Source of the DNA: Prorocentrum cordatum
Lineage: Eukaryota; Sar; Dinophyceae; Prorocentrales; Prorocentraceae
Reading direction: 5' to 3'
Length of the DNA stretch: 64,000 bases
Assembly: GCA_963575745.1 (NCBI GenBank)
Contig: CAUYUJ010000196.1
Location: 1 to 64,000, forward strand
Of this stretch, positions 18,297-58,237 are shown piece after piece. A program made the translations under genes and the position numbers. Position 1 is the stretch's first letter. Each line of letters starts with the position of its first letter. A model generated the notes under the pieces. It worked only from the letters and a program-made list of their open reading frames with translations. It was not told the origin of the DNA and did no database searches.

Positions 18297-18297
18297 G

Positions 18298-35909: not shown

Positions 35910-35931
35910 TGGTCCGGCTTAGCCGATCAGC
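35910..35931. repeat. Hairpin of the element B family
   Basis: Outer arms CTGGT/ATCAG (one G-T pair), bulge C, inner CGGC/GCCG, loop TTA. Confidence 0.7.
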
Positions 35932-36020
35932 AGAGTTGCTTACTCACCCGACACGACTTCGTCGCGCGGACGAGAACTCTCTTGCATGCGCCTGCCGCGA
36001 CTAAGTCACGCGGGCGAAAC

Positions 36021-37439
36021 TCAGTCCAGCTCCCTGAACGGGTTCTCTTCTCCCGTCGGTGGCGCCGGAGGCGTCGGGTTCGACGGCGCCGAGCCCCCAG
36101 TCTGTCCCTCGCCGCCACGAGGCGAACGTGACCGTCCTTTGCCACTATTAGTGTAGTATGCTGCTCTGTCGTTCTTCTCCTTGTTCTTGGACGCCTTCCC
36201 CTTCGGCGGGAAGCGAAAGCCATGCTCAAACGAAGACAGCGCGTGCCAAACCTGCGCCCACCAGACATCGTCGGACAACCACGTGATCCGATCCCGGTGG
36301 GCGCAGTCTCCGACCTGCACAGTGTTCGCGCAGTGCGGGCGGGACAGGAGCGGGTCGTAGCCGACAGCGCCGCGGCCGACATCCATGGCTCCATCGCGCG
36401 CGCGCGGGGGCCTCGACCAATCCCATGCGTCAGAATACCATGAGTATTCCTCTCTTGCCGTCGCGGCTGTGCCGGCGACAGAGCGTGGGGATTCGGTAAC
36501 TTCGTCGCCAGCCCGAGCGTCTGAGACGTCGGGTCTGCGCGGCGGAGGTGGCGGCTGCGGTCTGGCTTTCGCCGCATCCTGTGCTCGTATTGGCCCCGCG
36601 GAACCAGCTTCGCTGCCGTGGTGAGGATTGGCATTTCTGTTCTCACGAACGTTCTGCTTGCGATCTCGCATGAACTTCAGCGGACTCCTAGCAGGAGTAG
36701 CTACTGGGATGCCAAATATTCCGCATGCAGTGCGGAATGGGCCTGCGTCCTTATCCTGGAGCTCCGTCCCAGGATCTATGTATTTGTTCTGGGCCCCAGA
36801 AATGGCCTCTTCTAATAGTGCGCCCTCACGACGAATGTCGGTTTGCACCTGCCTACCCAAATTACGGGCCCACTCTCCTATGAGGTCGTCTGTTTGGACA
36901 GCGGCGCAAATGCGACATTCAAGAGCATATTCATCTCTCCGTCGCCTCAAGTAGACGGGATATGCGTTCTCTCTCGCGGGGCGAATTCTTCGCCCCGGGT
37001 AACCGACAAAGTGTCCATCTGAAATGAAGGAGCTCATGGTCTCGCGAACGATAGCAAGTATTCTTATGATGCGAAGACCAAGCTGCATTTGTTGTACAAG
37101 GGCCATCCAGTTCCCTGCAACTTTGTTCGTCACAATAGGTGGGGCCTCGTGTTCCGTTTCCCCTGAGAGTCGCAACCTATCGGGATCATTGGAGTTTGAG
37201 CGAACGCCTGTGTACTCAACAACATATTGTGCTGCGATCACCCTGGCCTCTAACCCGTGTAAAGAAATATTTATCGAGCTGTCCTCGCAATGGTTATATG
37301 CATAACCGTCGGGCTGGTCAAAGTTGATCGCCCCTCCGGTTATCAGCGCGGCCTTAGGCCCGCTGATTGCTGAGAAGTCAAGTCCGACCTGTGATTGCGC
37401 GCCTGCCATCACGGCTGCGCCGGTGGCGGGTTGCAGCAA
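36021..37439 (-). CDS. Cargo ORF nearest the 3' LTR, 472 residues, unrecognised
   Basis: The first half looks folded (GLDFSAISGPKAALITGGAI, GLEARVIAAQYVVEYTG, WMALVQQMQLGLRIIRILAI) with a Cys pair (ECRICAAVQ). The second half is Arg/Pro/Ser-rich and disordered, ending SGKGRSRSPRGGEGQ, an SR-like tail that could bind nucleic acid. No family recognised. It is the last ORF of the element before the 3' LTR, with hairpins at 37342-37367 and 37405-37427 inside its 5' part. A long uninterrupted frame suggests coding constraint. Confidence 0.65.
   Translation of the reverse strand: MLQPATGAAVMAGAQSQVGLDFSAISGPKAALITGGAINFDQPDGYAYNHCEDSSINISLHGLEARVIAAQYVVEYTGVRSNSNDPDRLRLSGETEHEAPPIVTNKVAGNWMALVQQMQLGLRIIRILAIVRETMSSFISDGHFVGYPGRRIRPARENAYPVYLRRRRDEYALECRICAAVQTDDLIGEWARNLGRQVQTDIRREGALLEEAISGAQNKYIDPGTELQDKDAGPFRTACGIFGIPVATPARSPLKFMRDRKQNVRENRNANPHHGSEAGSAGPIRAQDAAKARPQPPPPPRRPDVSDARAGDEVTESPRSVAGTAATAREEYSWYSDAWDWSRPPRARDGAMDVGRGAVGYDPLLSRPHCANTVQVGDCAHRDRITWLSDDVWWAQVWHALSSFEHGFRFPPKGKASKNKEKNDRAAYYTNSGKGRSRSPRGGEGQTGGSAPSNPTPPAPPTGEENPFRELD
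37342..37367. repeat. Hairpin of the element B family
   Basis: Outer arms ATCAGCG/CGCTGAT, bulge C, inner GGCC/GGCC, loop TTA. Confidence 0.75.
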
Positions 37440-37444
37440 TGGTA

Positions 37445-38020
37445 CTATGAGGCGATGATCGCGACACTCATTGATCCGTCTGGCGACGGAATGAGAATTG
37501 CGGGTTGGCCTCGCCTCGAGACTGTTCTCCCAGGCAACGGGTATGCGTCCGCGAGGATTTTGCCCTGCGCGAGGGTTTTGCCCTGCGGCTTCCAGGCAGC
37601 CACGGTGCCCCCATGGCTACCGCGTTTACAATTGTCTGAAGCGTCGGGACAAAGACATTTTGCCTGGTCATCTGGTTGTGCCATCTTTCCCAACCCAGCA
37701 CCGGTTCGACGACATCGTCCTGATATTCTGGCCAGTCGAAGGCTGCCAGAGCCGGGCAAGATATTGGGCGAGCGTACTGATCGATATTTGTCTTTCACAG
37801 CAATGGCCACCATACCTGGATCACAGGAACCTGCGTTCCCGCTCTCGCGGCTGAGAACGCAAGCCATTCGACGAACCTCAAGGGCTTCACTGGAAGAAAG
37901 GGCCAGGGCGCGCCAGCGGCTGAGCCGCGGCGTCCGTTGGAACCCAAGCAGGGAAATTGCCTGGCTGGCTGTTCCCAAAATCTGGCCTGCGGCAGCCACG
38001 CGCGCAAATTCCCCATTCAC
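37445..38020 (-). CDS. Cargo ORF, 191 residues, unrecognised
   Basis: Starts MNGEFARVAAAGQILGTASQ and ends six bases before the next ORF on the minus strand (start 37439). Basic, with Cys residues (AKCLCPDASDNCKRG). The close spacing suggests one former frame with the following ORF. A GCGGC/GCCGC hairpin with TGA loop lies inside at 37916-37928. No function assigned. Confidence 0.45.
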   Translation of the reverse strand: MNGEFARVAAAGQILGTASQAISLLGFQRTPRLSRWRALALSSSEALEVRRMACVLSRESGNAGSCDPGMVAIAVKDKYRSVRSPNILPGSGSLRLARISGRCRRTGAGLGKMAQPDDQAKCLCPDASDNCKRGSHGGTVAAWKPQGKTLAQGKILADAYPLPGRTVSRRGQPAILIPSPDGSMSVAIIAS

Positions 38021-38215: not shown

Positions 38216-39298
38216 TTAGTCGTGTGTGAGTCTATGTTTGCATTTGATCCGACAGCTGCAAACTGGACAGTGTTCGAAGCCCGCGCGCACCCAGTGAAAT
38301 CGGTAGCACAGGAACCTTCCGTCATCTTCCCAAGGGACAGACAGAACCCGTTCTTGTGCTTCGGGTGACAACTGTGGCCTGCGATTCGGCACCAACGATA
38401 GAGTCTCGTCTGTGTGAATCCCAGCAACCATTGATTCGTTGTCAAAAGTCACTTCGTACGAGGCCCACTCACGGTTGAAGAAAACGGACCAGAACGTCTG
38501 ATGTGCTAGGGAGCCATCGTTACCAACTCTAACACGGGTGACAGCCTTGTCGATATCAGTGAACTTCGGCACCTCTCGAGACACGAGGGTCCCGGCTTGG
38601 CAAACCCTGCGCGAGAATCGCGTGGGCACTCGGCCAGTGAAAACCAAGAATGGGTGCCCAGGACTCTCTGTGGTTGGGGAGCTTTTCCCATAGATGGACA
38701 GTGTCCTCTGCGGGCCAAGCCCCCACAGTTGGCAGCTCTCCTTCTTGTGCCTCGCGGCCCATGGACACAAAATGCCTTGCAGGGGGAGCCTCCCCGTACC
38801 TCCGCTGGCTGAGCCACGGAGGGACCTTTCGCAGTGTTCTGCATTAGGCATTGTTGGGCTCCTTTTAGTTGGAAGCAGCCTCGGCAGATCGCAAGCTGCT
38901 TCAAGGTAAAGCCCTGAGTCTTTCTTCGGAAAGCGGACTCTCCCATCCGTGGGCTCCAAGAAAGTCTGCATGTATGTGACATGGAGATGGGATCCGTGAC
39001 TCCTGACTTGGCCAGGGCCATATGGGACGCACATTCTTTCAATGGAAGCAACGAACGTGGAATGTCCCTGGCATGCACGGTAGAAAACGGGGATAGCAAC
39101 ACCGCTCCTCTGTTTTTCTTGCGAGGGGCACGCCTTGTACTGAGTCCACATGTTGTGAACACGTGTTCCAATGATGTCGTTACTATGTTTGGGGAGTATT
39201 CCCAAAACTTCCACTGTCTCTGATAGCAGCGCGGCTAAGCCGTGCGCGGCAAGAGCATATGACTGGAAAGCGAAGCCGTCCTCTGCAATCTTCTGCAC
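38216..39298 (-). CDS. Cargo ORF, 360 residues, Cys-rich C-terminus
   Basis: N-terminal helix (FQSYALAAHGLAALLSETVEV), middle of mixed composition, C-terminal segment CYRFHWVRAGFEHCPVC then CRIKCKHR, a possible small zinc site. The region 38850-38550 also reads sensibly in another frame, so a frameshift pair may lie inside. No family recognised. Hairpins at 38800-38821 and 39229 fall inside. Confidence 0.55.
   Translation of the reverse strand: MQKIAEDGFAFQSYALAAHGLAALLSETVEVLGILPKHSNDIIGTRVHNMWTQYKACPSQEKQRSGVAIPVFYRACQGHSTFVASIERMCVPYGPGQVRSHGSHLHVTYMQTFLEPTDGRVRFPKKDSGLYLEAACDLPRLLPTKRSPTMPNAEHCERSLRGSASGGTGRLPLQGILCPWAARHKKESCQLWGLGPQRTLSIYGKSSPTTESPGHPFLVFTGRVPTRFSRRVCQAGTLVSREVPKFTDIDKAVTRVRVGNDGSLAHQTFWSVFFNREWASYEVTFDNESMVAGIHTDETLSLVPNRRPQLSPEAQERVLSVPWEDDGRFLCYRFHWVRAGFEHCPVCSCRIKCKHRLTHD
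38800..38821. repeat. Hairpin of the element B family
   Basis: Outer arms CTCCG/CGGAG, bulge C, inner TGGC/GCCA, loop TGA. Confidence 0.75.
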
Positions 39299-39421: not shown

Positions 39422-39955
39422 TCAAGATTCCGCGCTGCCCAAGGCAGCTGGATTTTGGTTGTCCTCAACCCCAACTACCAACGGTACCAGGCACTTAAAG
39501 GACTTCGGAGTGAACCCTTCTGGGACATCTTCGGAATAAAACTCAGCTCGGAGAAGATCCATTGCCTGATCAAACGCGCCGTCAACTTGGTTGAGGCTGC
39601 CCAATAATGCGAAAATCTGGTCTTCCGCAAACTCTGCAATATATCGGAGCGCATTACCTGTTTGATTGCGCACGGCTTCGATATGCGGAGGAACGGGACC
39701 AGTCATGTGGGCATCGCGGACTTTCTGTCTCACTGGACCAGGTGTTCTCTGAATGATTCGTCCGCGTTCTTCATTTGAAACATCTAGCTGTCTGCCTTGA
39801 AATAAAACAGCACGCCCAACGTTAATATCTTGATCCCCACCGTGGGGATGTATAGGCGCGGGCTCGCGCTGTCTCCTGTCAGGAGCAGGCGGCAGACTCA
39901 CTATGCGGAATAGGTTCTCAGATGCAGGGCCGAGAAGGTAATTCTCGTCTTCCAT
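39422..39955 (-). CDS. Cargo ORF, 177 residues, unrecognised
   Basis: Helical C-terminal half (AVRNQTGNALRYIAEFAEDQ, then IFALLGSLNQVDGAFDQAMD). Starts shortly after the previous ORF on the minus strand (ends 39995). Probably a separate small protein or a continuation by frameshift. No function assigned. Confidence 0.5.
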   Translation of the reverse strand: MEDENYLLGPASENLFRIVSLPPAPDRRQREPAPIHPHGGDQDINVGRAVLFQGRQLDVSNEERGRIIQRTPGPVRQKVRDAHMTGPVPPHIEAVRNQTGNALRYIAEFAEDQIFALLGSLNQVDGAFDQAMDLLRAEFYSEDVPEGFTPKSFKCLVPLVVGVEDNQNPAALGSAES

Positions 39956-39994: not shown

Positions 39995-40795
39995 TTAAAC
40001 ATCCTCAGGTTCAGCGTCTGCTTCCAGGAGCCCCGGAGTGCCTGAGGCATCCGGGTCCTGTCCTGCAGAGGGAATTTCTGTTTCCTGTAGTCCGCTCGAA
40101 GCGGCTGCCGATGCTGGCGCCTTGGCGACAGGTGCAGTCTCATCCTCCGACGGGTCTATCGTGGGGGAAGACTGTTCTTGGCATGCCCCAGGCTGTTCAG
40201 CGTGTTCCGCTCTGGCTGGGCCAGGCGGAGGGGTCGGAGGGTTCGCCGTCACGGCTGCGCCGGTCGGAGGCGCAGGAGGAGTCGGAAGTCTACTCCCACT
40301 CGCACCGGACTCCTCTGCTGCTTGAGGCCTAGACCTCTCGCGCCTTTCAGGCACCATAGGAGGACGGGAGAAATTTGAATCCACTTTAAGGATCTGATCA
40401 ACAACAGCATCTGCAAATTTATTCCATGCAAGCGAGTGGGTCTCTGGTTCATGCATGTTCCGCATCCTATATCTCAGGTAGACATAGCTCGCAGCCTCAA
40501 TAAATGCGACAGCGTCTATCCTAAGTCCTATAAGCTCTTCAGTCTCTGGCCCTTTTGATATAAGATCACGCCATCTGTAAAATAACAGTTTTTCTATGTC
40601 CAACACTTTGCGCGCTCTGGAACGCGAAAAATGCATTTCTGAAACGTGTTTCATGGCTATGAAGATATTACTTGTATCATCGGCTCCGACCAACATCGGC
40701 GAGTCCTCAGACGAGACGCCCCCGTCCGACTGAGTCGGGGGCGGTGCTCCAGGGATGTCCAATGCATCGTCGCCACCATCTCGGGCAGGAGCCAC
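39995..40795 (-). CDS. Cargo ORF, 266 residues, helical domain plus Pro/Ala tail
   Basis: Residues 40-135 look folded and helical (ARKVLDIEKLLFYRWRDLIS; IDAVAFIEAASYVYLRYRMR); residues 150-266 are Pro/Ala/Ser/Glu-rich and disordered. Hairpins 40206-40229 and 40246-40267 encode parts of the disordered tail, and 40726 lies near the start. No family recognised. Confidence 0.6.
   Translation of the reverse strand: MAPARDGGDDALDIPGAPPPTQSDGGVSSEDSPMLVGADDTSNIFIAMKHVSEMHFSRSRARKVLDIEKLLFYRWRDLISKGPETEELIGLRIDAVAFIEAASYVYLRYRMRNMHEPETHSLAWNKFADAVVDQILKVDSNFSRPPMVPERRERSRPQAAEESGASGSRLPTPPAPPTGAAVTANPPTPPPGPARAEHAEQPGACQEQSSPTIDPSEDETAPVAKAPASAAASSGLQETEIPSAGQDPDASGTPGLLEADAEPEDV
40206..40229. repeat. 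Hairpin of the element B family
   Basis: Outer arms TCCGC/GCGGA, bulge T, inner CTGGC/GCCAG, loop TGG. Confidence 0.75.
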
Positions 40796-40894: not shown

Positions 40895-41543
40895 CTATGG
40901 GTCTCCCAGGCGTCTGGCCCATTTAGGTGCAGCCTTTACCGGAGGCTCTGCCTTCTGATGACTCTGACCCGTTGGCAGAGGATTGGCAACGTTGGGCCCA
41001 ATGAGTTGGGTCAAATTAGCCGGAGGGTCACGAATACTTGGTTTCCAGATCTTAGGCGGGCTGCCAGCCGTGTCTATGCCTCCAGGCTTTGCCGGTGGCT
41101 GCATCGATGGAGATGCCGCAGGGTTTTCTTCAACGCGATGCATCTTCGCTGGCGGAGGATTCATCGCATGCGCTTCTGGGCCAAATTGTGGCGGAGGCGG
41201 AGCTTTCTTGGGCATCATTTTTTCGCCTGTTGCACATCCCTGGGCCCAACAATGCGTCGTTCGGCTTCTTGGCCGGCGGCGGCGTCGGTGCTTGAATCGC
41301 CGGTGGAGCCTTCTTAGGATCTGCCTCTCTCGGCCCTTCATCGGGCGATCCCCCCTTAGGAGGAGGAGGCAGCATGGGCGTTTTCATAAGCGCGTCGGCC
41401 TTAAGAATAGAGGGCCAAGCCTCGGCCCGCGGGGGCGGAGGCTTAAATGCTCTCTCAGTGCTCGCAGACGCCTGCCCTAGATGCGGGAAGTTCCCGGTCT
41501 CAATCGAAAATTGGCCGCCGGACGGCTTAGCCGCCGGCTCCAC
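40895..41543 (-). CDS. Proline-rich cargo segment split by a frameshift
   Basis: Two overlapping frames (41543-41130 and 41341-40895) join near 41230 into one Pro/Lys/Ala-rich protein: KAPPAIQAPTPPPAKKPND, then PKKAPPPPQFGPEAHAMNPP. Intrinsically disordered; a linker or RNA-binding tail is possible. A hairpin (41517-41538) encodes its first residues (EPAAKPSGG). Confidence 0.5.
41517..41538. repeat. Hairpin of the element B family
   Basis: Outer arms GCCGG/CCGGC, bulge A, inner CGGC/GCCG, loop TTA. Confidence 0.8.
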
Positions 41544-42239: not shown

Positions 42240-43082
42240 TCAGCCTGCGGATGGGTGAAAGACCTCCGCAATCTTTTCATCTGCCACAAAGAAAGGTAAC
42301 GAGAGCTCAACACAATGGGCAACGCCCACTCTATGAGTCTTCACCGACAACCTGGCCCAATTCAGACGATCAGCAACTGTGGCTGCTGCGTCCGCTCTTG
42401 ACCGGTCGGCTTTGACCCTAAAGAAACGCGCCCAATTCGGAACCATATAGTTCGGTTCCATAGGTGGGGTTTTCGTTGACTTCTGCGGCAGCTGGAAAGC
42501 AAGCCACGCTTCCCCGTTGGCGGCTTTCTGAACCATCTTTTGTTGATAGCTCCTAGCCGGGTTCTTCGCTTGTGCAACTTCTGCAGCGCGGCCATCCTCG
42601 CCTGGGTAGGCGTTCCCTGGCGTCGTGCCTCTACGGAGGCTTCCGTCAGCGATCGTGAATGGACGACGAAAATCATGGTGAACAATGTCTGTCCCCGTTG
42701 CGCTTTGATAAGGCAACCTCTTCGTATGCTGATACGACAAACGGCATGGCCAAAAGGGCTCCTCTTCTCCTGGGCTACCTTCTTTCGGCCGCTTCGGGAA
42801 CTTGTATCTGCCGCTGAGCCTAGTTGCGTCTCCCTCCGGGCATTTACCGCGAAGGTATCTCTCTGCTGTCACTCCAGGCGTTTCTACTTCTTGAATACGA
42901 GAAGGCGGCGCCAAAGGAGGACTGCGGGGCGACTGAGCCGTCCGCGCACTAGAGTCAGTGCCCGAAACGGCTGAACCGCCGGGCGCGACGTCTCCGCTGG
43001 AAGCGGCGGCGCCAGCCGATGGCGCGACGTGAACAGGGATGGCTATGTCACCCGAGGCCGACCCACTCACCGAAACGGCCAA
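42240..43082 (-). CDS. Cargo ORF, 280 residues, disordered N-terminus and globular C-terminus
   Basis: Residues 1-60 are Ala/Ser/Pro-rich and contain hairpin-encoded segments (42961, 43068). The rest has aromatic and charged residues (EPFWPCRLSYQHTKRLPYQS; NYMVPNWARFFRVKADRSRA). Overlaps the preceding ORF (43067-44323) by 16 bases in another frame. Function unknown. Confidence 0.6.
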   Translation of the reverse strand: MAVSVSGSASGDIAIPVHVAPSAGAAASSGDVAPGGSAVSGTDSSARTAQSPRSPPLAPPSRIQEVETPGVTAERYLRGKCPEGDATRLSGRYKFPKRPKEGSPGEEEPFWPCRLSYQHTKRLPYQSATGTDIVHHDFRRPFTIADGSLRRGTTPGNAYPGEDGRAAEVAQAKNPARSYQQKMVQKAANGEAWLAFQLPQKSTKTPPMEPNYMVPNWARFFRVKADRSRADAAATVADRLNWARLSVKTHRVGVAHCVELSLPFFVADEKIAEVFHPSAG

Positions 43083-44526
43083 GCCGCTCGGTGCCGCTGC
43101 CGGCGCTGCCTTGTGCAGCCCGTTAAGCGCATGTGCTCGTCATTTTGCGCGCCTTCTTCCTCCGATATTTGGCTTTTCCCTTTTGGCGGCATCCCTGGGC
43201 AGAATTCTCTCCGCGCGGCAAGAAGTATATGTCGTCTTTCCATGGGAACAAAGTCCTCATATGCCGCTCCCCGCTTGAGAAAGTTCACAAAATCCTCCGA
43301 GCAATATGAGTGCATTGCGCCACCTCCAGAACCGTCTGAGACGGCTGGAAAATCATCTCTGCTCAAAACTGTCCTGAACGGGCGACGAGCATTGAGTATC
43401 GACGTACTTATGTTGCCCGCGGACGGGGCCCAGTCCTGCCAGTACATGACTAGCTCATTAACGGCCGCTTCCTGCTGGGCATAACCGCCTTCTCTTGTCG
43501 CGCATGTCATGTGGCCATTCCGTGCGGTTGAGCCGCCGGGGGGTTGGCATAATAATAACACGGCTAGCTTGGCAGTTCTGGCCAAGTAGTCTGCACACAA
43601 CTGGCCAGCACTCGCGCTCACTATTTGCCCACCATTGTTCAATGCGTAGTCCTGGTGGTTCGCATTAAAGTGAAAGGTGTCTCCTGAGCGATGCCTAAGC
43701 TGCCGGTAGAGGCTCACTCCGTCGAGGATCATTGTCCTAGGAAACATTCCTATGGCTTTGTAGTGTTCGATCCGACGGTTCATTCTGGCCCGAACAAGGG
43801 TGGCAACATCGTCCCACATCGGGTCTACGCCATCTCCATCAACCTGCCAGCACTTGTGGTCCCCACCAACATACATAATCTCAATCGCCGCATCGGAAGA
43901 ACGGCCCATCGCGTCGTCCACCAGCTTGACCGCATCCTCTACCATTATTCTAAGGCTTCCTGCACATGCGAATGGGTTATCCTGTCTTTTTGGCCCTGTG
44001 CCAACTCCGTTCAATTCGCATGTGTTATCAACAATGTCGTTGAAGCTCCAAAAGGTGAAGCGCATCGGAGTTTGGGTCCCCTTTTTGAAGTGCCCATTCT
44101 TGTCCCGCTGAAAGTTTGAAGAAGCCTCCCGAATGGCCGAGACCAGAGCTCCACTGATGGCGTTTTGTGAGCTTCCAAACACGATTTCTCGCAGGTTGTA
44201 CTCAGGGAGAAAGCTAGACTTCGCCTTCCCGGGTCCATCCTTGAATACAATTGTGGAATCAGAAACAATGTGAACAAAAAAAAAAAAAAACAATACATAT
44301 TCGACCCGCTCTTCATCAAGCACAGCGGGCGGAAGAAATCAGTCATGGGTTTCCCTGTGTCTGACACGGCCGCAAGGTCCTCTCCTATAAATAGAATCCA
44401 CGAATGTCCGTTGACCCTGGCGATTTGCGAGATGGCCTGACACTTCTTAAGAAATGTCAGTTTGACTGCCCAGGTCTTCATCATCGGGTCTGTGATCCCA
44501 ATATAAAGATCAAGGATCTCGTTCAC
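43067..44526 (-). CDS. Cargo ORF pair across a T15 run; weak SGNH-hydrolase-like features
   Basis: The minus strand reads KTWAVKLTFLKKCQAISQIA and HSWILFIGEDLAAVSDTGKP in one frame (from 44526), hits a T15 homopolymer (plus-strand A15 at 44276-44290), and continues in the next frame as SDSTIVFKDGPGKAKSSFLP onward to 43067 (about 480 residues together). Three motifs are loosely like SGNH/GDSL hydrolases: FIGEDLA, EIMYVGGDH and a DxxH (GDTFHFN), but order and spacing were not checked against a model, so this is a weak hypothesis. The homopolymer may be an assembly error, decay, or a slippage site. Confidence 0.5.
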
Positions 44527-49654: not shown

Positions 49655-49824
49655 ACTCGAACCATCAAAAACTACCCGACCTTTGTACTTGCGATCTTTG
49701 TGTCCTAACGGTAACTCTGAGTTCTTTTCAACAAGGATCGCAAACAGCCGGCCGAAGTGGGCCGTCTGTCCCTTGAGTTCGGCGACAACGTCAGAGTACT
49801 ATCTGACACCATCCTCTTTCCATG

Positions 49825-50475
49825 TCATGATGGATTCCATGTGCCAATGTCACGTAGTCTATCCAATTCTTGTCTCAAGGCAGCTTGGGCGTCTTTGTTC
49901 GCTTTGGCCTCGTCCTTTGAAACAGATCTGGCGACAGCGGCATCAATGTAGGTGTTGCCAGTCGTTGGGAAGTTGGAAGGGTTCGTCGATGACTGAGATA
50001 AGGTCAGTAAAAGTGTTGTAAAAAATTGCAAATCAAATCTCTCTTTTTCGCGATGACTGAGAACTAAAGCCGAGCCATCCTGCAACGGCATTCGAGGCAC
50101 GCTTCGCCGCGACGCGGCGGCCGCCGGACTCAAGGTCTGGCTTGCCTCATGAATGTCCTCAATCTCATCATCATAGGACAGCGGGCCCCTACCGGCTGAG
50201 CCGGAGAAATTCCCATCTCGTGCAATTGTGCCTCCGCACCATGTCTGTTTCCACCAAATATCCTCATCATCCGAAAGATGTTCATCATAATCACCTTCCT
50301 CCGAGGACCCAGCAGCCACAGCTGCGGCTTGGCCGCCCTGTGCAGGCCGCGACGCCGCCCCGCGTCCGCTGCCAGGGGCGTAGCACAGGCTGTTCGCCCC
50401 CAAAAGACGGAGCCGCTCAGCCACCTGCGGCGCTGCTGGCCTGGCTTCGGGATATGCCGCGAGTGGCTGAGCCAC
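49825..50475 (-). CDS. pol: Region between integrase and RT; N-terminus of RT (element B)
   Basis: Disordered and acidic N-terminal half (EEGDYDEHLSDDEDIWWKQ), then LVLSHREKERFDLQFFTTLL, IDAAVARSVSKDEAKANKDA and LRQELDRLRDIGTWNPS, the usual lead-in to copia RT. Continues by frameshift at about 49825. Hairpins 50192, 50319 and 50457 lie in the disordered half. Confidence 0.65.
   Translation of the reverse strand: MAQPLAAYPEARPAAPQVAERLRLLGANSLCYAPGSGRGAASRPAQGGQAAAVAAGSSEEGDYDEHLSDDEDIWWKQTWCGGTIARDGNFSGSAGRGPLSYDDEIEDIHEASQTLSPAAAASRRSVPRMPLQDGSALVLSHREKERFDLQFFTTLLLTLSQSSTNPSNFPTTGNTYIDAAVARSVSKDEAKANKDAQAALRQELDRLRDIGTWNPS
50319..50340. repeat. Hairpin of the element B family
   Basis: Outer arms CAG/CTG, internal loop CT/C, inner GCGGC/GCCGC, loop TTG. 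Confidence 0.65.
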
Positions 50476-50480
50476 TGCGG
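50457..50480. repeat. Hairpin of the element B family
   Basis: Outer arms CCGC/GCGG, bulge G, inner AGTGGC/GCCACT, loop TGA. Unusual inner stem, same design. Confidence 0.8.
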
Positions 50481-50773: not shown

Positions 50774-51901
50774 CTACATGTCTTTCGTCGACCTGTCAAT
50801 GGGAGTTGCTGCGTCAACTCTTTTTTTTTGTAAAAAAATCCAGCGACAATTCGTCTGTCTTCGAAGTAATCCATCGCGTCCAGGTTTTGAGTCGCTCGAA
50901 CAAGAAGTCGCCCTTTCCCGGGAACCTTCGCGCCGTGGATCTCTGCCGTCAACTACCATAGGCTCGTCAGCCACGCGCAACCCACCAGGGCCTTCTTCTT
51001 CCATTTCGGCCCCTGGGTCAAAGTGCGGGGCGCCCTCGCATCCTTGGGAAGGCGGCGGCATGACAGCGGCAGGATCGTCGGCGCCAAACAAGTTGTCCGG
51101 TCGTATCCCTGCTGCTGGTTGTGGTCCGTCTGGGACGGCCGCAGCTCCTCCTGCTGGAGGGATCGTGACGGAAAGTACTTCGGCCACCGCCTTGTCGCAC
51201 GCTTTTCTCACAGGAAATTGGGGCGATTGGTCATCAGCAGTGCCATCTAAGATGTTGCTGTACACCTGGTCAGACTTCTCAATAGTGGGTCGTTTACCCT
51301 CTGGGGTACGCCCTGACTCCATGTTCAAACCGTCCAGTTGTCTCAACGGCACAACATAACTCTCTGGTCCAACCAATCCCCCCGCTTTGTGCACATACCC
51401 CAAGTATATCCCCGGAATCACTGTTGCGCCAGTCTTGGCGGTCCGAAACCTGGACTCAGGTGGAGGCACATAGCGCACAAGAGACCCAAAGGGAAGGAGC
51501 GGAGCATCGAATTTACATCCAAAGCGTCGCTCCCAACTTGGCTGTCCCTCCGCTGGGGTCCTGGTATTGTAGCAAAGACAGAAGTATCGGACTGCGTAGG
51601 TCCAATATGGTGGCAGAAGACCGGCCTGCATGAGCAAGGCTCTAGTCCCCATCTGTACCACCCCGTTTGCACGCTCAGCAACGGCGTTATGTTTCTTATT
51701 TCCTGGGATGGTAGCATCATGGGCAATCTTGAGCTCGCAACGTGCCCTCGCAACTTCTCTTGCACCATCTGTATAACAATATTCTAACTTCTCCACCGGG
51801 GCTTTCAGTTCACCAAAAAGTTGCAAACGTGAGCCGCAGACTTGTCGTGTACACCCTGAGCGGCAAGAAAATGCGTAGCTCGGTCGCAAAAAGTCACGCA
51901 C
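50774..51901 (-). CDS. pol: Integrase catalytic core (second half) and C-terminal domain, element B
   Basis: True frame begins about 51815 (FGELKAPVEKLEYCYTDG). Asp45 (codon 51769-51767) is the second and Glu76 (codon 51676-51674, in HNAVAERANG) the third residue of the D-D-E triad. Then TRALLMQAGLLPPYWTYAVR and GSLVRYVPPPESRFR, followed by VIPGIYLGYV as in copia integrases. After residue 200 it becomes an acidic/Pro-rich linker. Role: insertion of element DNA. Confidence 0.85.
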   Translation of the reverse strand: MRDFLRPSYAFSCRSGCTRQVCGSRLQLFGELKAPVEKLEYCYTDGAREVARARCELKIAHDATIPGNKKHNAVAERANGVVQMGTRALLMQAGLLPPYWTYAVRYFCLCYNTRTPAEGQPSWERRFGCKFDAPLLPFGSLVRYVPPPESRFRTAKTGATVIPGIYLGYVHKAGGLVGPESYVVPLRQLDGLNMESGRTPEGKRPTIEKSDQVYSNILDGTADDQSPQFPVRKACDKAVAEVLSVTIPPAGGAAAVPDGPQPAAGIRPDNLFGADDPAAVMPPPSQGCEGAPHFDPGAEMEEEGPGGLRVADEPMVVDGRDPRREGSRERATSCSSDSKPGRDGLLRRQTNCRWIFLQKKRVDAATPIDRSTKDM

Positions 51902-52150
51902 GCGGTCTCATCGTGGAGCCTCCGCGAGAGTTCACCCATCGCAAACCAATGATCGATCGTCGTCAGGCGTCCAAACGAAGGGGTTAGCGCACGGGCGGGG
52001 AACCTTTAGCCCTTTGTTTTGCGCCTTGTGATGTTGCTTTCTGATAGCTTTGGCCCAATTGCACACTGGACAATATGGGTTCTTAGGAGCATGAGTTAGA
52101 CGGTGCGGCAGGGAGGCCGAGGTCTTTTTGAGCCGCTCGGCAAGGGTCTC
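51808..52150 (-). CDS. pol: Integrase N-terminus: HHCC zinc domain and first catalytic Asp (element B)
   Basis: No single long ORF covers this; it was found by translating. One frame reads LKKTSASLPHRLTHAPKNPY then CPVCNWAKAIRK (H-x3-H...C-x2-C at 52061-52105). After a shift near 51970 the next frame reads FGRLTTIDHWFAMGELSRRL, with catalytic Asp at 51954-51952, and CVTFCDRATHFLAAQGVHDK. This completes a D-D-E integrase together with the next ORF. Two frameshifts make it non-functional as it stands. Confidence 0.75.
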
Positions 52151-52912
52151 CTACACCTCAACCTCCGCATCGTCTGGGTCTAAGTCTGGCGGTGCGTCGA
52201 CGTCGACTAAGTCGACACCGTCAGCGTCTCCGACTTCACCCTCCTCAGGTCCAGGGGCCGCGCTGCGCGCACTGGAGTCCAGTCCTCGTTTCATTTCGTA
52301 GGGAAGATATCCTGGGACTCCGTGCCCGCGAGGGCTTCTGTATGCGGCGGCGCAGGCCTCGGCTTTGCCGGGCTGCTCGTCGCGCTGACCGACGGCTTGA
52401 CCGCGGCAGGGCGAAGTTGAGAGACTTTTGAAAGCAGCGATGCCGGTCGGCGTCCGATTCCAACCGCTTTCACTAGCCTTTTGATGCGAATAGTAAAAGT
52501 AGGTGATGGCATCCGCAGAGTCTATCGATGACGGGAAGACAGGCGCGATCTCAGTCGGCCGTCCATCAGCGTAGCTGTGGGCACCAATCGACTCATGTGT
52601 ATGCAGGTCTATGGTCACGCGAGTCTGGACAGCGTGGGGCGGAGGGCCTCCCGCCGATTCCACATTGCCCAGGAATGCCTTGGCGCCTGGCATCACGCAG
52701 CGCCACCGCTCGGGAGGTTCGCCCCCTCCGGCGGCAGCAGCGCACATCCACTGACCCACCGCCTCTTTGCCTGATAGGGTCAAGTACGGCATTTTGCCCT
52801 CAACGGCCAGGTCCACTCTTTGACCGTTGGGCAACAACAGGTAGGGTATTTGGCCTGCTGGCCAGAAGATGCTAAAGCCGTGATCCATGCACCGCTCTCC
52901 TACCGAAATCAC
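52151..52912 (-). CDS. pol: Protease C-terminal half and linker (element B)
   Basis: Begins SVGERCMDHGFSIFWPAGQI and LPNGQRVDLAVEGKMPYLTL, the second half of the copia protease as I recall it from dinoflagellates; the rest is a linker with acidic end (GEVGDADGVDLVDVDAPPDL). It starts one base before the stop-bounded end of the preceding ORF (52913), so a single frameshift separates them. Confidence 0.65.
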   Translation of the reverse strand: MISVGERCMDHGFSIFWPAGQIPYLLLPNGQRVDLAVEGKMPYLTLSGKEAVGQWMCAAAAGGGEPPERWRCVMPGAKAFLGNVESAGGPPPHAVQTRVTIDLHTHESIGAHSYADGRPTEIAPVFPSSIDSADAITYFYYSHQKASESGWNRTPTGIAAFKSLSTSPCRGQAVGQRDEQPGKAEACAAAYRSPRGHGVPGYLPYEMKRGLDSSARSAAPGPEEGEVGDADGVDLVDVDAPPDLDPDDAEVEV

Positions 52913-53620
52913 TCACGGGGTCTCCGGCATGACTGAAGCATTAAAACTACCACCCTTAAACTTGGGGCATGCGATGCGAACTGAATCGAGGGCCTTTGAT
53001 TCTCCCCCAGCAGTATTCAGAGTGATCGATTGCGGAAGCTGTCGACTCAATCTCATTGCACCTGCACTTCTAATATATCTCTCCGCTATGAGGTTATACC
53101 CACACCCAGTATCTATGATAAAGCTCAGCGCGCCAAGATACGCAGCGTCTGTATCTGTGCATCCAGCAGCGGCTGTGCCGTGTGGGCCCTCTTCCCCCTC
53201 CTCGGTTCTCAGCCAGAGATGCCTGACTTCATCCTGCAGGTCCGACGCTCTGATCAGGGCCTCCGCAGCAGACGCCCTCCACTGAGTAGACATATGTCTG
53301 CGCATTTCTCCCGGGAATTCCCACCTATCTTTGCCACTCGAAGGCAACTCTTTCAAATCGTGGCGACGCGCCTTCCTCCAAGTAAGGGTGGGCCCCTCAG
53401 TGGAGGGGTGAAATCGGACACGGAGATTGCACCTATCGTTCTTTCGATATCGGATGCAACTCTTACCAAGGGGGACGCACCAGTACATCTTGATGGCGTA
53501 TATACCGAGAAAGACGATATAGGAAATTCGCAAGGACATCGACGAGACTCTCGACCTGTTCCCTGCCTTCGCGGTGAAACTCATCGCCGGAAGGATTCCT
53601 GCAGTCTCCTCCACCGGCAT
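52913..53620 (-). CDS. pol: Aspartic protease N-terminal half (element B)
   Basis: Residues 165-178 (LSFIIDTGCGYNLI) contain a canonical Asp-Thr-Gly with Asp170 at 53113-53111, then SITLNTAGGESKALD. Upstream residues are a basic linker from Gag. Canonical DTG contrasts with the DPG of element A. Confidence 0.8.
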   Translation of the reverse strand: MPVEETAGILPAMSFTAKAGNRSRVSSMSLRISYIVFLGIYAIKMYWCVPLGKSCIRYRKNDRCNLRVRFHPSTEGPTLTWRKARRHDLKELPSSGKDRWEFPGEMRRHMSTQWRASAAEALIRASDLQDEVRHLWLRTEEGEEGPHGTAAAGCTDTDAAYLGALSFIIDTGCGYNLIAERYIRSAGAMRLSRQLPQSITLNTAGGESKALDSVRIACPKFKGGSFNASVMPETP

Positions 53621-53837
53621 CGGTAAAGACCTTCAAAAATTTAGGGCTAGTATGTTTCTGCCCTGGGAGGCCCCGAAACAACGGAGCGGGGCACGCGATG
53701 GCGCCCAAGCTGACTTGGCCAACGGGTATCTTCTGATCCCCCCGCTTTCGGTTTGACCGACGCGGATGTCGCCGCATCCGTCGAGCAAGGAAGACAAGAA
53801 AGAGTACCCTTAACAAATTATGTAAATCATTCCTCAT

Positions 53838-53873: not shown

Positions 53874-54788
53874 TCACGGATGACCAGTCGTGGTCTGAGC
53901 AAACCAACACTCCTTGCCACGTGAGCATTCACCTGTTTCCTTGAAGGAGCGACAGATCATGTCTTTGCCCTTGCCTTTGCCTTTGTTATTGTCTCCATCC
54001 TTCTTGCGCTTGTCGGAGTTATTGCTGGAGGCTCTCGAGCCACCGTCGCATCCCGACGGTGAGACATTGGCAGCGGCGGCGTTGGCTTGCTTGGCTGTGC
54101 GCTCGTATCCCAAAGATTGCCCCGCGTCAAGCTTCGCTTGTTCCCATTTGTCGCGTTTAAGCTTCTCAGCATCGGTCAACCATCTGTGGACTTTATTGCG
54201 ACCGTCTGCTGCTCCGCGACAACTCTTGAAGTCTCGAGACCACGCGTAGCATGGCATCGTGCTCTCTTTCCCACGCGATCGATTGGATTGACCCCTGTTC
54301 CTCTGTTGCGCCCCCTTCCCACGTCCACCCATTGGGGTCTGCGATCGACTCTGCCCCTTTCGGCCTCGGTCCTTGGATCTCCCTCTGGGGTTTTTGTCCT
54401 GGGCAGGAGCGGCGTTGCACTTATTTCCCGCAGCTGGCTGAGCCGGAGCGGCAGTCTTGGGCTTCTTGTGATTGAAAGGACAACCTTTTCCAGCATGCGG
54501 GCAGGTTTCGCCCTTACGCACGTACCTACACGTCGTCTCGCCCTTAGTCAATCCACTTTTCATGACACTGGTGGGTTTCCCTAATTTAGCTGCTACTTCT
54601 GCCGGGGCGGCTTTGCCGCCCGCGTTCCTTCGATTGTCATTGCCTCCACCTCCGCCCAACCTGGCCTGCCGCGCACGTTGATTCAAGGTACTCTCATGCA
54701 CACAGATGTTCCGCTCTTCTTTGTCACGCAGCATCATTCCTTCGATCTGCCCCATCAGCCATTCGTAAGTCTTCACACCATGTCCCAT
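53874..54788 (-). CDS. gag: Gag C-terminal part with CCCH-type zinc fingers (element B)
   Basis: Residues 87-107 (CRYVRKGETC then PHAGKGCPFNH) form a CCCH finger (C-x8-C-x6-C-x3-H). A second copy at the C-terminus (ICRSFKETGECSRGKEC then WFAQ) has lost the final His. Between them lie Lys/Gly/Arg-rich RNA-binding stretches and another Cys/His string (CYAWSRDFKSC). CCCH fingers instead of a CCHC knuckle distinguish this Gag from element A. Hairpins at 54428 and 54605 lie inside. Confidence 0.75.
   Translation of the reverse strand: MGHGVKTYEWLMGQIEGMMLRDKEERNICVHESTLNQRARQARLGGGGGNDNRRNAGGKAAPAEVAAKLGKPTSVMKSGLTKGETTCRYVRKGETCPHAGKGCPFNHKKPKTAAPAQPAAGNKCNAAPAQDKNPRGRSKDRGRKGQSRSQTPMGGRGKGAQQRNRGQSNRSRGKESTMPCYAWSRDFKSCRGAADGRNKVHRWLTDAEKLKRDKWEQAKLDAGQSLGYERTAKQANAAAANVSPSGCDGGSRASSNNSDKRKKDGDNNKGKGKGKDMICRSFKETGECSRGKECWFAQTTTGHP
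54428..54451. repeat. Hairpin of the element B family
   Basis: Outer arms CCGC/GCGG, internal AG/A, inner CTGGC/GCCGG (one T-G pair), loop TGA. Confidence 0.65.
54605..54621. repeat. Perfect hairpin of the element B family
   Basis: Arms GGGCGGC/GCCGCCC around loop TTT. Confidence 0.75.
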
Positions 54789-55345
54789 TTTTGTCCATGG
54801 ACAGGTCAGAAAGTTGGCAAACGAAATTCAATTTGTTGGGCCTTCTGCATTGCTCGATAAAGTGTGCATGAATCGAAGCCCTCATCTCATCAGACGGAGG
54901 TCGGGCGCCATAGAGCTGTTGGTATATCTGGCCACTCGTTATAGAAATGGTACGGGTCAGCGCCCGGCTTGTTGGGGTCAATAACAACCTTGAAGATATC
55001 ACGCGAAATTCGATGTTGGCCCAGCTCCGACCTAACAGAACACCAATGACAAATGGTTCGTACCATCTCGCGTCCCGTTAAAAGCCTCCCCTCATTCTGG
55101 GCGCTGCACCCCATTCGAGTGATCTGCTGGAGGACGTGTATGTGATGACTGGGCTGGTTGCGATTTCTCCGCATTTTGTTGAATTCCTCAATCAGATTAG
55201 TGGCGACCATGAGGTCAAGACGCTGGAAGCGGCCTGCCTCTTTCAGTTGTTCATCATCCACGGCAGGGTTCATAGCTTCCGAAATCCAGCTCTGCGCTGC
55301 TTTGCTCTCGGGCGACGACCAAGCGGTCGCACGGATTGCACGCAT
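54724..55345 (-). CDS. gag: Gag capsid-like core (element B), two frames
   Basis: The first frame (55345-54890) reads QRLDLMVATNLIEEFNKMRR, HHIHVLQQITRMGCSAQNEG, ISRDIFKVVIDPNKPGADPY; the second (55002-54724) continues IYQQLYGARPPSDEMRASIH and CRRPNKLNFVCQLSD. Helical, position and content fit a Gag core preceding the zinc-finger region. One frameshift near 54910. Confidence 0.6.
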
Positions 55346-56249
55346 TTGCCACTCCCGTATGTTTGTACATCGGGGATGTCCAACAAGTCAATCTTCTGAT
55401 TGTTTCCAACCTGCGTCCACTGGTCCAACGGCGTACTTTCAGCAATATCTCCTGGACCATGCGGCCCGCCTGGGCCCTGAGGTCCCCCACGGCCACCTCC
55501 ACCATCTGAGGGTCCTGATCCCCCCGGACTCCCTCTGGAGGCGGTTTATCTGGTCGTTTAGCGTTATCTTCGTCGTGCATCGACATAATCTCAGTGCTCG
55601 GTGCGTCACTCTTGTCATCCCCTTTTTTGTCCTGTCCTGCCCCGCCAGACGGCTTAGCCGCTGGCGGCCTCACAGGTCCATCCCTGGAAAATGGATAATA
55701 GTTGACAAAACGATCATCATCGCCGGATCCTGTCAATCTCATGTCGATTGGCAATCCATTCTCAGGGGTGCTCGGCTTAGCCGGACCTTCGAGAGCAGGA
55801 CCGGGAACGGTAAAGTTGTGGCGCACCACGAAACTCACAGGAGATTCTTGTAGAAGTAACGGCAAGTCGAACGAACTCGAGGTGAACACTTTTTCTTGTC
55901 CACTCTCAGTGTACGGGAATGGGTTCGCGATGATGACTTTAAGCATCATCCTTATTTTCTCTGACTCGGCTGCATTCACCATGGCCTCTTCCTCTCGAAT
56001 GTTGGCAGCTGGCCTCTCGCTCTTCCGTAGAGTACATTGAGAACATCTTTTAGTTTTCGCGTCGAAATGATCTTTGCAAGCCGGCAAGCCACAACCAGCG
56101 CAATCACCCGTCTTCGGGTTGAAGCAAACTGAGCAAAACTGGGAAACTGTGAAACTTGCTGTGGTAGTTTCTTCCCTTTTCGCAAGCTGAGGCTGCGATG
56201 CAACCCTCGCCTGCAAAGTTGACGATCCCGCGTTCATTACGGTTGTCAC
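55254..56249 (-). CDS. Gag-upstream protein with Cys-rich treble-clef-like cluster (element B)
   Basis: Residues 37-72 contain CSVCFNPKTGDCAGCGLPAC, KDHF and RCSQC: eight Cys and one or two His, a B-box/PHD-like metal cluster of unidentified class. Then helices and a globular part (MMLKVIIANPFPYTESGQEK; SFVVRHNFTVPGPAL), followed by a disordered region with hairpin 55642-55667 (encoding PPAAKPSGG) and frame loss near 55430. No family assigned. Confidence 0.6.
   Translation of the reverse strand: MTTVMNAGSSTLQARVASQPQLAKREETTTASFTVSQFCSVCFNPKTGDCAGCGLPACKDHFDAKTKRCSQCTLRKSERPAANIREEEAMVNAAESEKIRMMLKVIIANPFPYTESGQEKVFTSSSFDLPLLLQESPVSFVVRHNFTVPGPALEGPAKPSTPENGLPIDMRLTGSGDDDRFVNYYPFSRDGPVRPPAAKPSGGAGQDKKGDDKSDAPSTEIMSMHDEDNAKRPDKPPPEGVRGDQDPQMVEVAVGDLRAQAGRMVQEILLKVRRWTSGRRLETIRRLTCWTSPMYKHTGVANACNPCDRLVVAREQSSAELDFGSYEPCRG
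55642..55667. repeat. Hairpin of the element B family, longest outer helix
   Basis: Outer arms CCGCCAG/CTGGCGG (7 bp), bulge A, inner CGGC/GCCG, loop TTA. Confidence 0.85.
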
Positions 56250-56276: not shown

Positions 56277-56298
56277 GCCAGACGACTGAGCCGTTGGC
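56277..56298. repeat. Hairpin of the element B family
   Basis: Outer arms GCCAG/TTGGC, bulge A, inner CGAC/GCCG (one weak pair), loop TGA. Near-copy of 55644-55665. Confidence 0.7.
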
Positions 56299-56313: not shown

Positions 56314-56338
56314 GCCCCAGCCGGCTTAGCCGGCGGGC
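56314..56338. repeat. Hairpin of the element B family
   Basis: Outer arms GCCC/GGGC, bulge CA, inner GCCGGC/GCCGGC, loop TTA. Confidence 0.75.
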
Positions 56339-56590
56339 ATTTATCACTTGCATACGCTGCAGGGATGCTCTGGCGTTTTCATGTGATTTGAATTCTTCTC
56401 GATATTGATTGTTCTGGTCAGCTATCTTCGCAGCTACAACTTGGGTGTTAACCGCTTCCAACCTGGCGTTTTTTTTATATGTTCTTGAAGCTCCTGTTTT
56501 TCTCGTTCCGCCCTGGCTGTAGCCATTTGTTCTCCTTCTGCTCTAGCCACCGCAACAGCAGCGGTGACCGTTTTGGCATCAACAGACTGA

Positions 56591-57320
56591 TTAGTCGCCG
56601 CCACAACGGCCTGTCGTTCTGAAGCCAGCTTCTCGAAATATCTGTTCTCGGTCTCTCTCCGCCTGCCGCTTAGCGGCCGCGGTCTGATGGTGCACCTTCT
56701 CCACCAGTTCTTGTTCTCGCTCTCTGGCAGCCTTGGCTAGAGCGAGCCTTTCAGCCTCGAACGTCTTCCGAACTTCTTCCATGGTTGCGATCGTGTCCTC
56801 TCCATCCAGTCGGGCCCTTTTCGGCCAGCTTCGCTTCGCTTGCCAGGAACTCCTGCTGAGTCTTGACTTCAGCGAGTCTAGCCTGATCCTGAATAGTTTG
56901 TATAAGAAGAAATGTGCAGTTATGCTCGTTCATAGGGCAGCAATCTTGACACAACCATTGGGTACTACACTGAGGGCACACCTCAGAGCAGCTCTGACAT
57001 ACTGGATGCCTAAATGCGCCTTCTGGCTTGTTGGCTTTACCCGGGCATCTGCTCTCCGCCTGAGGCGCGCAATCAGAATTCCAGTTCCAGCGTGTGTCAA
57101 TCATTGAGATATTGCTGTTGCTCCTTGAAGTAGATCGCGCTCCTGATCTCGGTATTTTGTGTCTTCCCCTACTAGAAGTGTTCGATCGAGGACGCACAAA
57201 CGTGCATTCTGGGGGTCTAGGTACCTCTCGAAGCTTCTCATCCCTTTCATCTTGTCTTATGAGCTCAGTGTGCGAATCTGGTTGTCCAACCATTTCTTCA
57301 TCCTCAACCGCAGCTGGCAC
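56591..57320 (-). CDS. Cys-rich and coiled-coil protein near the 5' end of element B
   Basis: The first frame (57320-56751) has a basic Ser/Arg-rich stretch, then HPVCQSCSEVCPQCSTQWLC and QDCCPMNEHNC, a dense metal-binding cluster, then helices (QTIQDQARLAEVKTQQEF). The second frame (56782-56591) continues a coiled coil (EEVRKTFEAERLALAKAARE; QAERDREQIF). Cys cluster followed by coiled coil resembles B-box/coiled-coil organisation, but I do not assign a family. Confidence 0.55.
56659..56682. repeat. Hairpin of the element B family
   Basis: Outer arms CCGC/GCGG, internal loop CT/C, inner GCCGC/GCGGC, loop TTA. Confidence 0.75.
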
Positions 57321-57365
57321 CGAGGGTTGCCAATCGCCTGAGGCGACAACATGGCGATAGAAACC

Positions 57366-57827
57366 TTATTTACGGGGTGAGTCGTTTAAATCGTAATCCT
57401 CGCTCCCCCGCTTCTTGAGTTGAGGTGCAGGAGTCCGCCCTGTAGACTCTCTATCATGCGTCGCCTGAGTCTCAGCCTTGGCCGCCAGAGGCGTCAGGTC
57501 ACTGGTATCTTCATCTGATCCATCTGGGGGCCACTTCTCGCCTTGGGCGGGGTGGTCTGCTTCCACTAACGAAGGCAATTCTCGACTCAAGGAGACTCCT
57601 TTGCTGGCATAATCGAAATCTTCCTCCATTGAGTGTATTTCATGCTCTCTATCAATTGGATCATCACCATCCTGGCCCAAGTGCCCGTTCAATGCTATTG
57701 GAATGGGAAGCATTTCCACTCGTGCCTCCCCATCCGCCTGGGACATTGGGGAACACGGCTGTGGACTCGTGGGCTTCCCCCGATCGACTGGCTTCACCAG
57801 CGGCCGGTACGACTGTATGTGTAGCAA
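57366..57827 (-). CDS. First ORF of element B, 153 residues, acidic and unrecognised
   Basis: Mostly disordered and acidic (DDPIDREHEIHSMEEDFDYA). Stops at TAA (57368-57366); the same frame then stays open into the following Cys-rich ORF, so the stop may be a nonsense change. It is the first sizeable ORF after the 5' LTR. Confidence 0.45.
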   Translation of the reverse strand: MLHIQSYRPLVKPVDRGKPTSPQPCSPMSQADGEARVEMLPIPIALNGHLGQDGDDPIDREHEIHSMEEDFDYASKGVSLSRELPSLVEADHPAQGEKWPPDGSDEDTSDLTPLAAKAETQATHDRESTGRTPAPQLKKRGSEDYDLNDSPRK

Positions 57828-58237
57828 TCGGAATGGGACTGATGGACTCCGTCGAGTCGGCGATCAAAGACGAAAATGCTCCTCGTCTAGATCTCGCTGT
57901 TGTGCCATTCCGCCCATGCGGGTCTGGGGTTTGTTCGCGATTACCGATCGGAACTCCAGAGGGAGAGCCATCTTCCGACGTCTCAACAGCCTCTTCAATG
58001 TTTCTACCCCTAGAGACCCGAGTGGCGGTACTGGAAGAAGGAAGGCGGCCCTGACCAGGGCCGCTTTCCTGTGGATCATGTCAGTCATGCTGTACAACAT
58101 GCTGTTCTGCGCTTCGCGAAGTGACGGACATTTCATCTGTATTATCACAGCTCATACCCGCAGCGACTGAGTCGGGGGGGTCATCAGAATGCCATGCTTC
58201 TGGCTGATATGAGCCCGCTGCGACTATGTCGCGGCTT

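Follow-up and report, generated by a model that had tools for sequence, protein, structure and literature searches.

Multiple stem-loops spread along a genomic RNA, their sequence varying around a shared motif, have been described as packaging signals in RNA viruses, including MS2, picornaviruses and, in its pregenomic RNA, hepatitis B virus (PMC6281560). For MS2, the same source gives the motif as loop letters together with one bulged base. The genomic RNAs of the long terminal repeat (LTR) retrotransposons Ty1 and Ty3 also carry cis-acting structures, and one review states that LTR retrotransposon packaging sequences lack a clear definition and that multiple, scattered RNA sites likely contribute (PMC4974528). 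In Ty3, the untranslated regions and POL are reported to matter, and the elements so far defined in Ty1, Ty3 and HIV-1 are found in the RNA's 5′ region, at its end (PMC11381356). No repeated hairpin of a single design is known to us from these accounts. Here we describe a family of dispersed hairpins in element B, a 23.2-kb LTR retroelement at positions 35395–58596 of a 64,000-nucleotide stretch of the dinoflagellate Prorocentrum cordatum (assembly GCA_963575745.1, contig CAUYUJ010000196.1, positions 1 to 64,000), hereafter called the window. The coding strand of the element is the minus strand, on which all of its features listed below also lie.

Two other kinds of hairpin-rich sequence invite comparison with element B. 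Mobile double-hairpin elements and organelle palindromes likewise supply many short hairpins per replicon; unlike the hairpins of element B, which differ in sequence, all face the same way and are frequently situated within open frames, the double-hairpin elements are described as organellar and those of cryptophytes as intergenic (PMC5910586). The introners of Amoebophrya, also a dinoflagellate, have hairpins without family-specific sequence (PMC7789003), and these would have one sense by the very nature of introns. Their hairpins enclose an intron, whereas the loop in element B is 3 nt. No published account of a hairpin family such as the present one was found in the open literature, as covered by the titles and abstract beginnings of the matches listed, with subscription papers and preprints outside the search.

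A basic site was defined, as viewed on the plus strand, as a C[TNN]G triloop hairpin with at least four Watson–Crick pairs. Between the LTRs there are 52 such sites, against a mean of 7.25 (standard deviation 2.6, maximum 16) in 1000 dinucleotide shuffles of 1-kb blocks; with about 7 expected by chance, about 45 of them are real. The first-pass annotation had proposed more than 40 hairpins at roughly every 500 bases, lying both between and inside open reading frames (ORFs), and all of this held, the mean spacing being 437 nt and the density about equal inside ORFs (34 per 15,795 nt of non-overlapping ORFs) and outside them (18 per 6,709 nt). When the 16 classes defined by the closing base and the loop's first base were tabulated for 35910–58232 against 100 shuffles, the class with closing C and first loop base T reached 50 versus 6.9 (maximum 12). 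Two other classes, A with T (12 versus 4.9) and T with G (12 versus 5.1), showed a mild rise, exceeding the highest of the 100 shuffles by one in each case, and the remaining 13 of 16 stayed within their own shuffle maximum.

Loops of 3 nt (the catalogue) and of 4–8 nt were scanned, and loops of 4–6 bases showed a mild, unspecific excess with no comparable class (the top four-base classes being 17 versus 7.9 and 13 versus 5.0). Four-base-loop palindromes as a whole were in mild general excess in element B (134 versus 91). Regions of the window outside element B held chance numbers of hairpins, and the two LTRs held none. The annotation had likewise seen none in the LTRs, where only about 0.8 hairpins per LTR would be expected; the comparison it had suggested, with shuffled and unrelated sequence, gave a large excess in element B and chance levels elsewhere in the window. 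The shuffled-sequence counts rule out base composition as the source of the excess. Known RNA families were considered as well and rejected, since a covariance search of 34500–59500 against 4227 Rfam families returned no match at E≤1, and no tRNA was found.

Viewed on the coding strand, the complete design has an outer helix of 4–7 bp and an inner helix of 4–6 bp, the latter often CGGC/GCCG. The triloop reads N-M-A and is closed by C-G, and a single base is left bulged where the two helices meet on the 3′ side. Its full length is 12+2n nt and hence often not a multiple of three. Among the 52 basic sites, the inner arm is CGGC in 21 and CGAC in 8, the remainder being varied, and the second loop base is C in 25, A in 18, T in 8 and G in 1; the commonest loops are UCA and UAA. 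The MS2 signal differs in having an A bulged on the 5′ side and a loop of the form (x)xYA, as opposed to the present LTR retroelement, where any base may be bulged on the 3′ side, the triloop is N-M-A and the sites number about 45. The constitutive decay element, a triloop hairpin bound by Roquin, resembles the present family in its C-G closing pair and in the precedence of shape over sequence. Its loop is Y-R-Y, a pattern that the commonest loops of element B do not follow.

This design emerged from a count of two-helix structures sorted by the size of the loop, the length of the inner helix and the side of the bulge, with the loop letter left unconstrained. The cell that stood out combined a triloop with a 4-bp inner helix, an outer helix of at least 4 bp and a single unpaired base on the 5′ side (plus-strand view), with 12 cases versus 0.4 expected and 1 versus 0.6 for its mirror image. 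Across inner helices of at least 4 bp, the bulge lay on this side in a ratio of 16:1, and T, which had not been selected for, was the first loop base on the plus strand in 16 of 16. With a T loop, an inner helix of 4 bp and five outer pairs, 24 sites had at least eight of nine pairs (0.68 expected, maximum 4) and ten had all nine (0.03, maximum 1). Allowing an inner helix of 4–6 bp, a 1-nt bulge, five outer pairs and at most one mismatch, and taking the best register, gave 29 sites, 11 of them perfect, versus 0.86 (maximum 4) in 100 shuffles. Twenty of these 29 belong to the 52 basic sites, so the second outer helix that the annotation had ascribed to many hairpins applies to some 20 of them. 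The bulge it had put at 1–2 nt is mostly 1 nt; 2 nt on the same side is rarer yet above chance (8 versus 0.7), and a bulge on the opposite side is slightly raised (5 versus 0.9, maximum 4). Folding was calculated for six sites, and all six folded as designed, at −10.1 to −21.3 kcal/mol: 37344–37365 (−18.1 kcal/mol in 30 nt), 38800–38821 (−16.3), 44977–44998 (−10.1), 46066–46087 (−16.6), 48980–49001 (−16.0) and 55644–55665 (−21.3), each a perfect two-helix hairpin.

The hairpins share one orientation. Loops with only a plus-strand T in first place outnumber those with only an A in last place by 26:6 (p 0.0005), in the same direction as the bulge side. They cover the internal region, beginning some 20 nt in from the 5′ LTR and ending some 180 nt short of the 3′ LTR.

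Within ORFs, the hairpins are maintained through synonymous codon choice. Reshuffling synonymous codons with the proteins kept lowered the number of ORF hairpins from 34 to 4.8 (maximum 14 in 300 shuffles) and that of the perfect design from 6 to 0.04 (maximum 1), and since the proteins are unchanged by this procedure, selection acts on the nucleic acid. Mainly two kinds of peptide, Gly-x-Ala and Pro-Ala-x-Pro, carry the hairpins, and the loops of the 34 ORF hairpins fall in reading phase 0 in 22 cases, phase 2 in 11 and phase 1 in 1. An explanation by coding, through recurrent PAKP/PAQP linker peptides, is ruled out by the synonymous shuffle and by the several loop phases. Together with the orientation bias, these counts show a one-orientation motif that selection maintained, either while this copy of element B existed or before it arose.

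The sequence of the hairpins varies while their shape stays, as the annotation had already observed. A model set was made of 21 of the 24 sites with at least eight of nine pairs, those at 44591, 53653 and 54828 being omitted by eye as weak-looking. In this set, all 21 outer arms are distinct (identity 0.42 versus 0.34 from composition), the bulged base is unconstrained (T 7, G 6, C 5, A 3), and all nine pairs vary on both sides, a covariation that is partly built in because the set was chosen for pairing. The model matches given next, the orientation counts, the dinucleotide and synonymous shuffles and the count of 29 strict sites are less exposed to this bias. The resulting covariance model (R1) gave 88 matches in the window at E≤10, of which 52, including the 21 training sites, lie on the minus strand of element B. 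Its plus strand had 11, all at E>1 and nine of them overlying minus-strand matches, and the other 25 are spread over both strands of the remaining window. The non-training matches at E≤0.5 number 14, and 11 of these fall on element B's minus strand, where chance would place about one in six. Matches from outside the training set include 40721–40742 and 56660–56681 (both with an inner helix of 5 bp), 56316–56337 (inner 6), 42924–42945 (an inner A-C mismatch), and the two-helix hairpins 50458–50479 (inner 6, 22.1 bits) and 56277–56298 (an inner A-C mismatch).

Paired changes were seen in just three places. At 47684–47764, three 27-nt units carry one hairpin each (loops at 47696, 47723 and 47750) and are invariant at 16 of 27 columns, the middle unit having G changed to A and its pairing C to T, so that a G-C pair has become A-T. 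Within 46028–46099, the perfect hairpin 46066–46087 has an outer T-A pair where its neighbour, the two-helix hairpin 46036–46057, possibly a local duplicate, has C-G; 25 of 42 columns are identical, mostly within the hairpin. Common descent is uncertain in both arrays, since Tandem Repeats Finder listed neither and the likeness of the second is mostly the hairpin itself. Finally, 24-nt stretches starting at 41515 (perfect hairpin 41517–41538) and 55642 (55642–55665), 14 kb apart, are identical at 22 of 24 bases, and the two differing bases pair with each other. Comparing the internal region with itself yielded only two weak pairs at E≤1. No related loci were found in protein scans of viral and genome contig collections or in a pattern scan of viral contigs.

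The other two-helix hairpins comprise 35909–35930, which has 8/9 pairs and belongs to the R1 model, the perfect 9/9 hairpin 36512–36533, and further sites with 8/9 pairs at 40246–40267, 46215–46236, 47117–47138, 47926–47947 and 53743–53764. The two-helix scan added 37911–37932, 40033–40054 (perfect), 40207–40228 (inner 5), 45567–45588 (perfect, with an A-T closing pair), 45710–45731 (also with an A-T closing pair) and 54602–54623, which lies within the gag ORF. The triloop catalogue supplies the remaining sites. Those with an inner hairpin only are 35954–35964, 36605–36615, 37412–37422, 39232–39242, 40943–40953 and 42328–42338. That at 36464–36474 is the sole strict case with the bulge on the opposite side, 39582–39594 has a weak outer helix, 43332–43344 a 2-nt bulge, 44691–44707 is a 7-bp hairpin and 52202–52216 one of 6 bp, and 50324–50336 and 51126–51138 have an outer helix as well and enter the strict count. 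Further inner hairpins lie at 44768–44780, 45696–45706, 48664–48676, 50192–50204, 51244–51254, 52260–52270, 52360–52370, 53170–53180, 54128–54140, 55773–55783, 57057–57067, 57334–57346, 57539–57549, 58164–58174 and 58220–58232, the last about 20 nt inside the 5′ LTR, and the one at 53110–53120 is perhaps due to chance, as it coincides with the codons of a protease motif.

Element B is most likely an old copy of a giant, 23.2-kb Copia-like LTR retrotransposon with minus-strand coding, as indicated by its LTR pair, long minus-strand ORFs and homologues of gag and integrase. Its limits reach beyond the 35910–58232 first given for the hairpin region. The 3′ LTR (35395–35736) and 5′ LTR (58255–58596), of 342 bp each, differ at 25 of 342 positions, or about 7%. 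Inspection by eye of the sequences flanking the LTRs found no matching target-site duplication, which may have eroded given this divergence. The longest open frames are interrupted by stops and frame changes, as an old copy would be. Candidate ORFs for gag, protease, integrase and reverse transcriptase would follow one another in this order on one strand, with homologues for the gag and integrase ORFs and a weak protease match. The Gag/nucleocapsid-like ORF (53877–54827) has CCCH-like motifs, with a Pfam zf-CCCH match (E 0.0012) just below the Pfam cut-off, and seven homologues (P0004–P0010, E 5e-83 to 3e-28), available as protein sequences only. The protease-like ORF (52916–53632) has a weak gag-asp_proteas match, also below the cut-off (E 0.012). 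The ORF at 50777–51907 has three homologues, the best with 74% identity across 50% of the query, and from Copia motifs recognized by eye we take it to be an integrase, there being no Pfam match. Similarly, we presume 49280–49798 to be a fragment of a Copia-like reverse transcriptase from the order of its motifs, judged by eye and again without a Pfam match. Integrase and gag homologues P0001–P0003 and P0009 are labelled in EukProt as Pyramimonas sp., a green alga, which conflicts with the dinoflagellate host; contamination or transfer is possible.

Several ORFs downstream of the reverse transcriptase have no assigned role. That at 36024–37616 had no protein homologue at E≤0.001 among 7998 candidates scored, and the predicted structures of two accessory ORFs had a mean pLDDT of 37 and 36, too low for use. 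The accessory ORF at 46098–47180 (minus strand), which has an unusable structure model and no Pfam match even at E 10, has a PC-containing motif reminiscent of cytosine methyltransferases. Capture of DNA methyltransferase (DNMT) genes by dinoflagellate retrotransposons has been described (PMC5890265). About 640 nt upstream of the 5′ LTR, a 21-nt match to the dinoflagellate spliced leader, whose sequence is given in PMC12014239, lies at 59234–59254 on the minus strand, with two mismatches and no counterpart in 100 shuffles. This single site makes a dinoflagellate host likely, and it may mark the start of a retrogene that element B entered or inserted beside.

What might such hairpins do? A motif in one orientation suggests that the molecule concerned is single-stranded, the genomic RNA being the simplest candidate; a fixed loop A, closing pair and bulge on otherwise free arms would suit a protein reading shape plus one letter; and dozens of sites along the whole RNA would suit assembly or compaction. 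We tentatively propose, by analogy with the viral packaging signals, that hairpins in the sense RNA are dispersed Gag-binding sites for packaging or assembly. In this scheme, the hairpins would be carried by a full-length, unspliced 23-kb RNA and recognized through their shape and loop A by the element's own CCCH-finger Gag, and the binding of Gag at many sites would compact and package the RNA while discriminating it from host mRNA. Multiple stem-loops with a shared motif, as expected of packaging signals, are indeed spread along element B, and presumably along one RNA that spans it. The annotation had considered RNA signals for packaging, processing or translation of a very long RNA, and its idea is supported in part by the single orientation, by selection on the nucleic acid within ORFs and by the spread over the whole region, with too few mismatched pairs to tell RNA from DNA.

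Several points weigh against this proposal. The single RNA spanning the element is itself something we infer, from the LTRs and the common strand. The evenness of the hairpins is marginal: in 1-kb bins the variance/mean ratio is 0.49, a value as low in 3.3% of random placements (13% and 25% in larger bins). The mean minus-strand folding z of element B is −0.63, close to that of its surroundings (−0.60, −0.34 and −0.37). When 24 sites are folded within 150 nt of context, the closing pair forms with a mean probability of 0.70 and the outer helix with one of 0.52, much as on the antisense strand (0.67, 0.53). Only 18 non-canonical pairs occur at the 29 strict sites in their best register, with 3 G-U on the coding strand and 4 A-C. 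No sibling copy of element B was found in the public contig scans. For Ty1 of yeast, retrotransposition with proteins supplied in trans is reported to need no more than a short domain at the 5′ side together with the 3′ end (PMC5454406), so dispersed sites would not be a general need.

As to the folding itself, windows that hold a hairpin are more folded (z −1.03, n=37) than the others (−0.48, n=112), and a globally structured RNA is ruled out, since element B taken as a whole shows no more folding than the DNA around it; this points to a specific motif rather than to a generally structured RNA. A cruder wobble tally, in which sites were counted in two registers, gave 22 coding-strand G-U and 28 A-C pairs. 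Wobble counts are too few for telling RNA pairing from DNA pairing, and decay after insertion, at 7% between the LTRs, would blur such a signal.

An unlikely alternative, though one to be taken seriously, is that the sense-RNA hairpins are read by some other factor of the host or the element and serve nuclear export, stability, localization or control of translation instead of packaging. The single orientation and the protein-readable shape apply equally here, and the ORFs downstream of the reverse transcriptase could encode the reader, although the structure models of the two accessory ORFs are unusable for recognizing an RNA-binding fold. Export or stability signals usually need fewer copies, however, than about 45 over 22 kb.

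That the structure acts in DNA, as single-stranded cDNA in the course of reverse transcription or as cruciforms bound by integrase, reverse transcriptase or a host protein, is rather improbable. The coding strand shows no preference for G-U over A-C pairs (3 versus 4), counts too small for much weight, and the cDNA strand, which is the window's plus strand, would also form hairpins, with a T-first triloop and a 5′ bulge. Even so, one orientation still demands a single-stranded stage, and no function that tens of such sites might have in cDNA is known to us.

Mobile or copied hairpin cassettes, the other suggestion of the annotation, would resemble double-hairpin elements or palindromic insertions in ORFs, and we regard them as very improbable. 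The possible local duplicates and the near-identical pair 14 kb apart are what copying might leave, and a few hairpins may have come from local duplication. Against this, the outer arms all differ and selection falls on the nucleic acid, self-comparison gave no more than its two weak pairs, the bulge side is 16:1 in one direction where cassettes should occur in both, and a form whose length is often not a multiple of three nevertheless occurs in open frames at 34 of 52 sites. A purely mutational origin, in which template switching by reverse transcriptase perfects short imperfect palindromes to no function, seems fainter still: the mild general excess of short palindromes in element B fits it, but it does not predict the fixed loop letter, the closing pair or the distance and side of the bulge, nor the lack of a comparable class among loops of 4–6 bases. 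Least credible of all are footprints of hairpin-bridged, non-canonical introns, that is, inverted repeats closed by splicing before reverse transcription, since the 8–20 nt inverted repeats of Amoebophrya introners, which likewise lack a motif specific to the family and whose hairpins are spliced at varying positions, are reported to lie at both ends of the same intron and so would mostly be lost with it (PMC7789003), and no intron-bearing version was seen here, none having been searched for.

The rest of the window holds several further repeats and candidate elements. Two direct-repeat arrays with mostly 77-nt spacing, at 20872–22723 and from 30160 to beyond 31298, lie about 7.7 kb apart; their copies have 61–90% identity to a reference copy, among the 30 of 36 copies listed, and long open frames in several registers. 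At 16586–18314, direct-repeat segments spaced 923–933 nt (three) and 779 nt (one) are 84–99% identical, and a short-repeat array of the TGCTA/TGCTG kind occupies 25389–25663. On the minus strand, 63154–63972 has an RVT_1 match (E 8e-6) just under the cut-off and is perhaps part of a non-LTR element near the window end, and 10866–12215 has a zinc-knuckle match (E 0.0015), also below the cut-off, adjoining long minus-strand ORFs in DNA of 62–69% GC, and is perhaps another retroelement.

Returning to packaging by Gag, the fullest form of the proposal is a second code running through the ORFs, in which one-orientation, 3′-bulged N-M-A hairpins are read by the element's own CCCH-finger Gag for recognition, compaction and encapsidation of the 23-kb RNA. 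Such a code is possible, if on balance doubtful. Were it true, it would amount to virus-style, packaging-signal-mediated assembly in an LTR retroelement, and it could have permitted the giant size of element B. With about 45 sites and a clear consensus, a role in packaging could be tested directly by mutation and binding, and the family hints at how a very long retroelement RNA may be handled.

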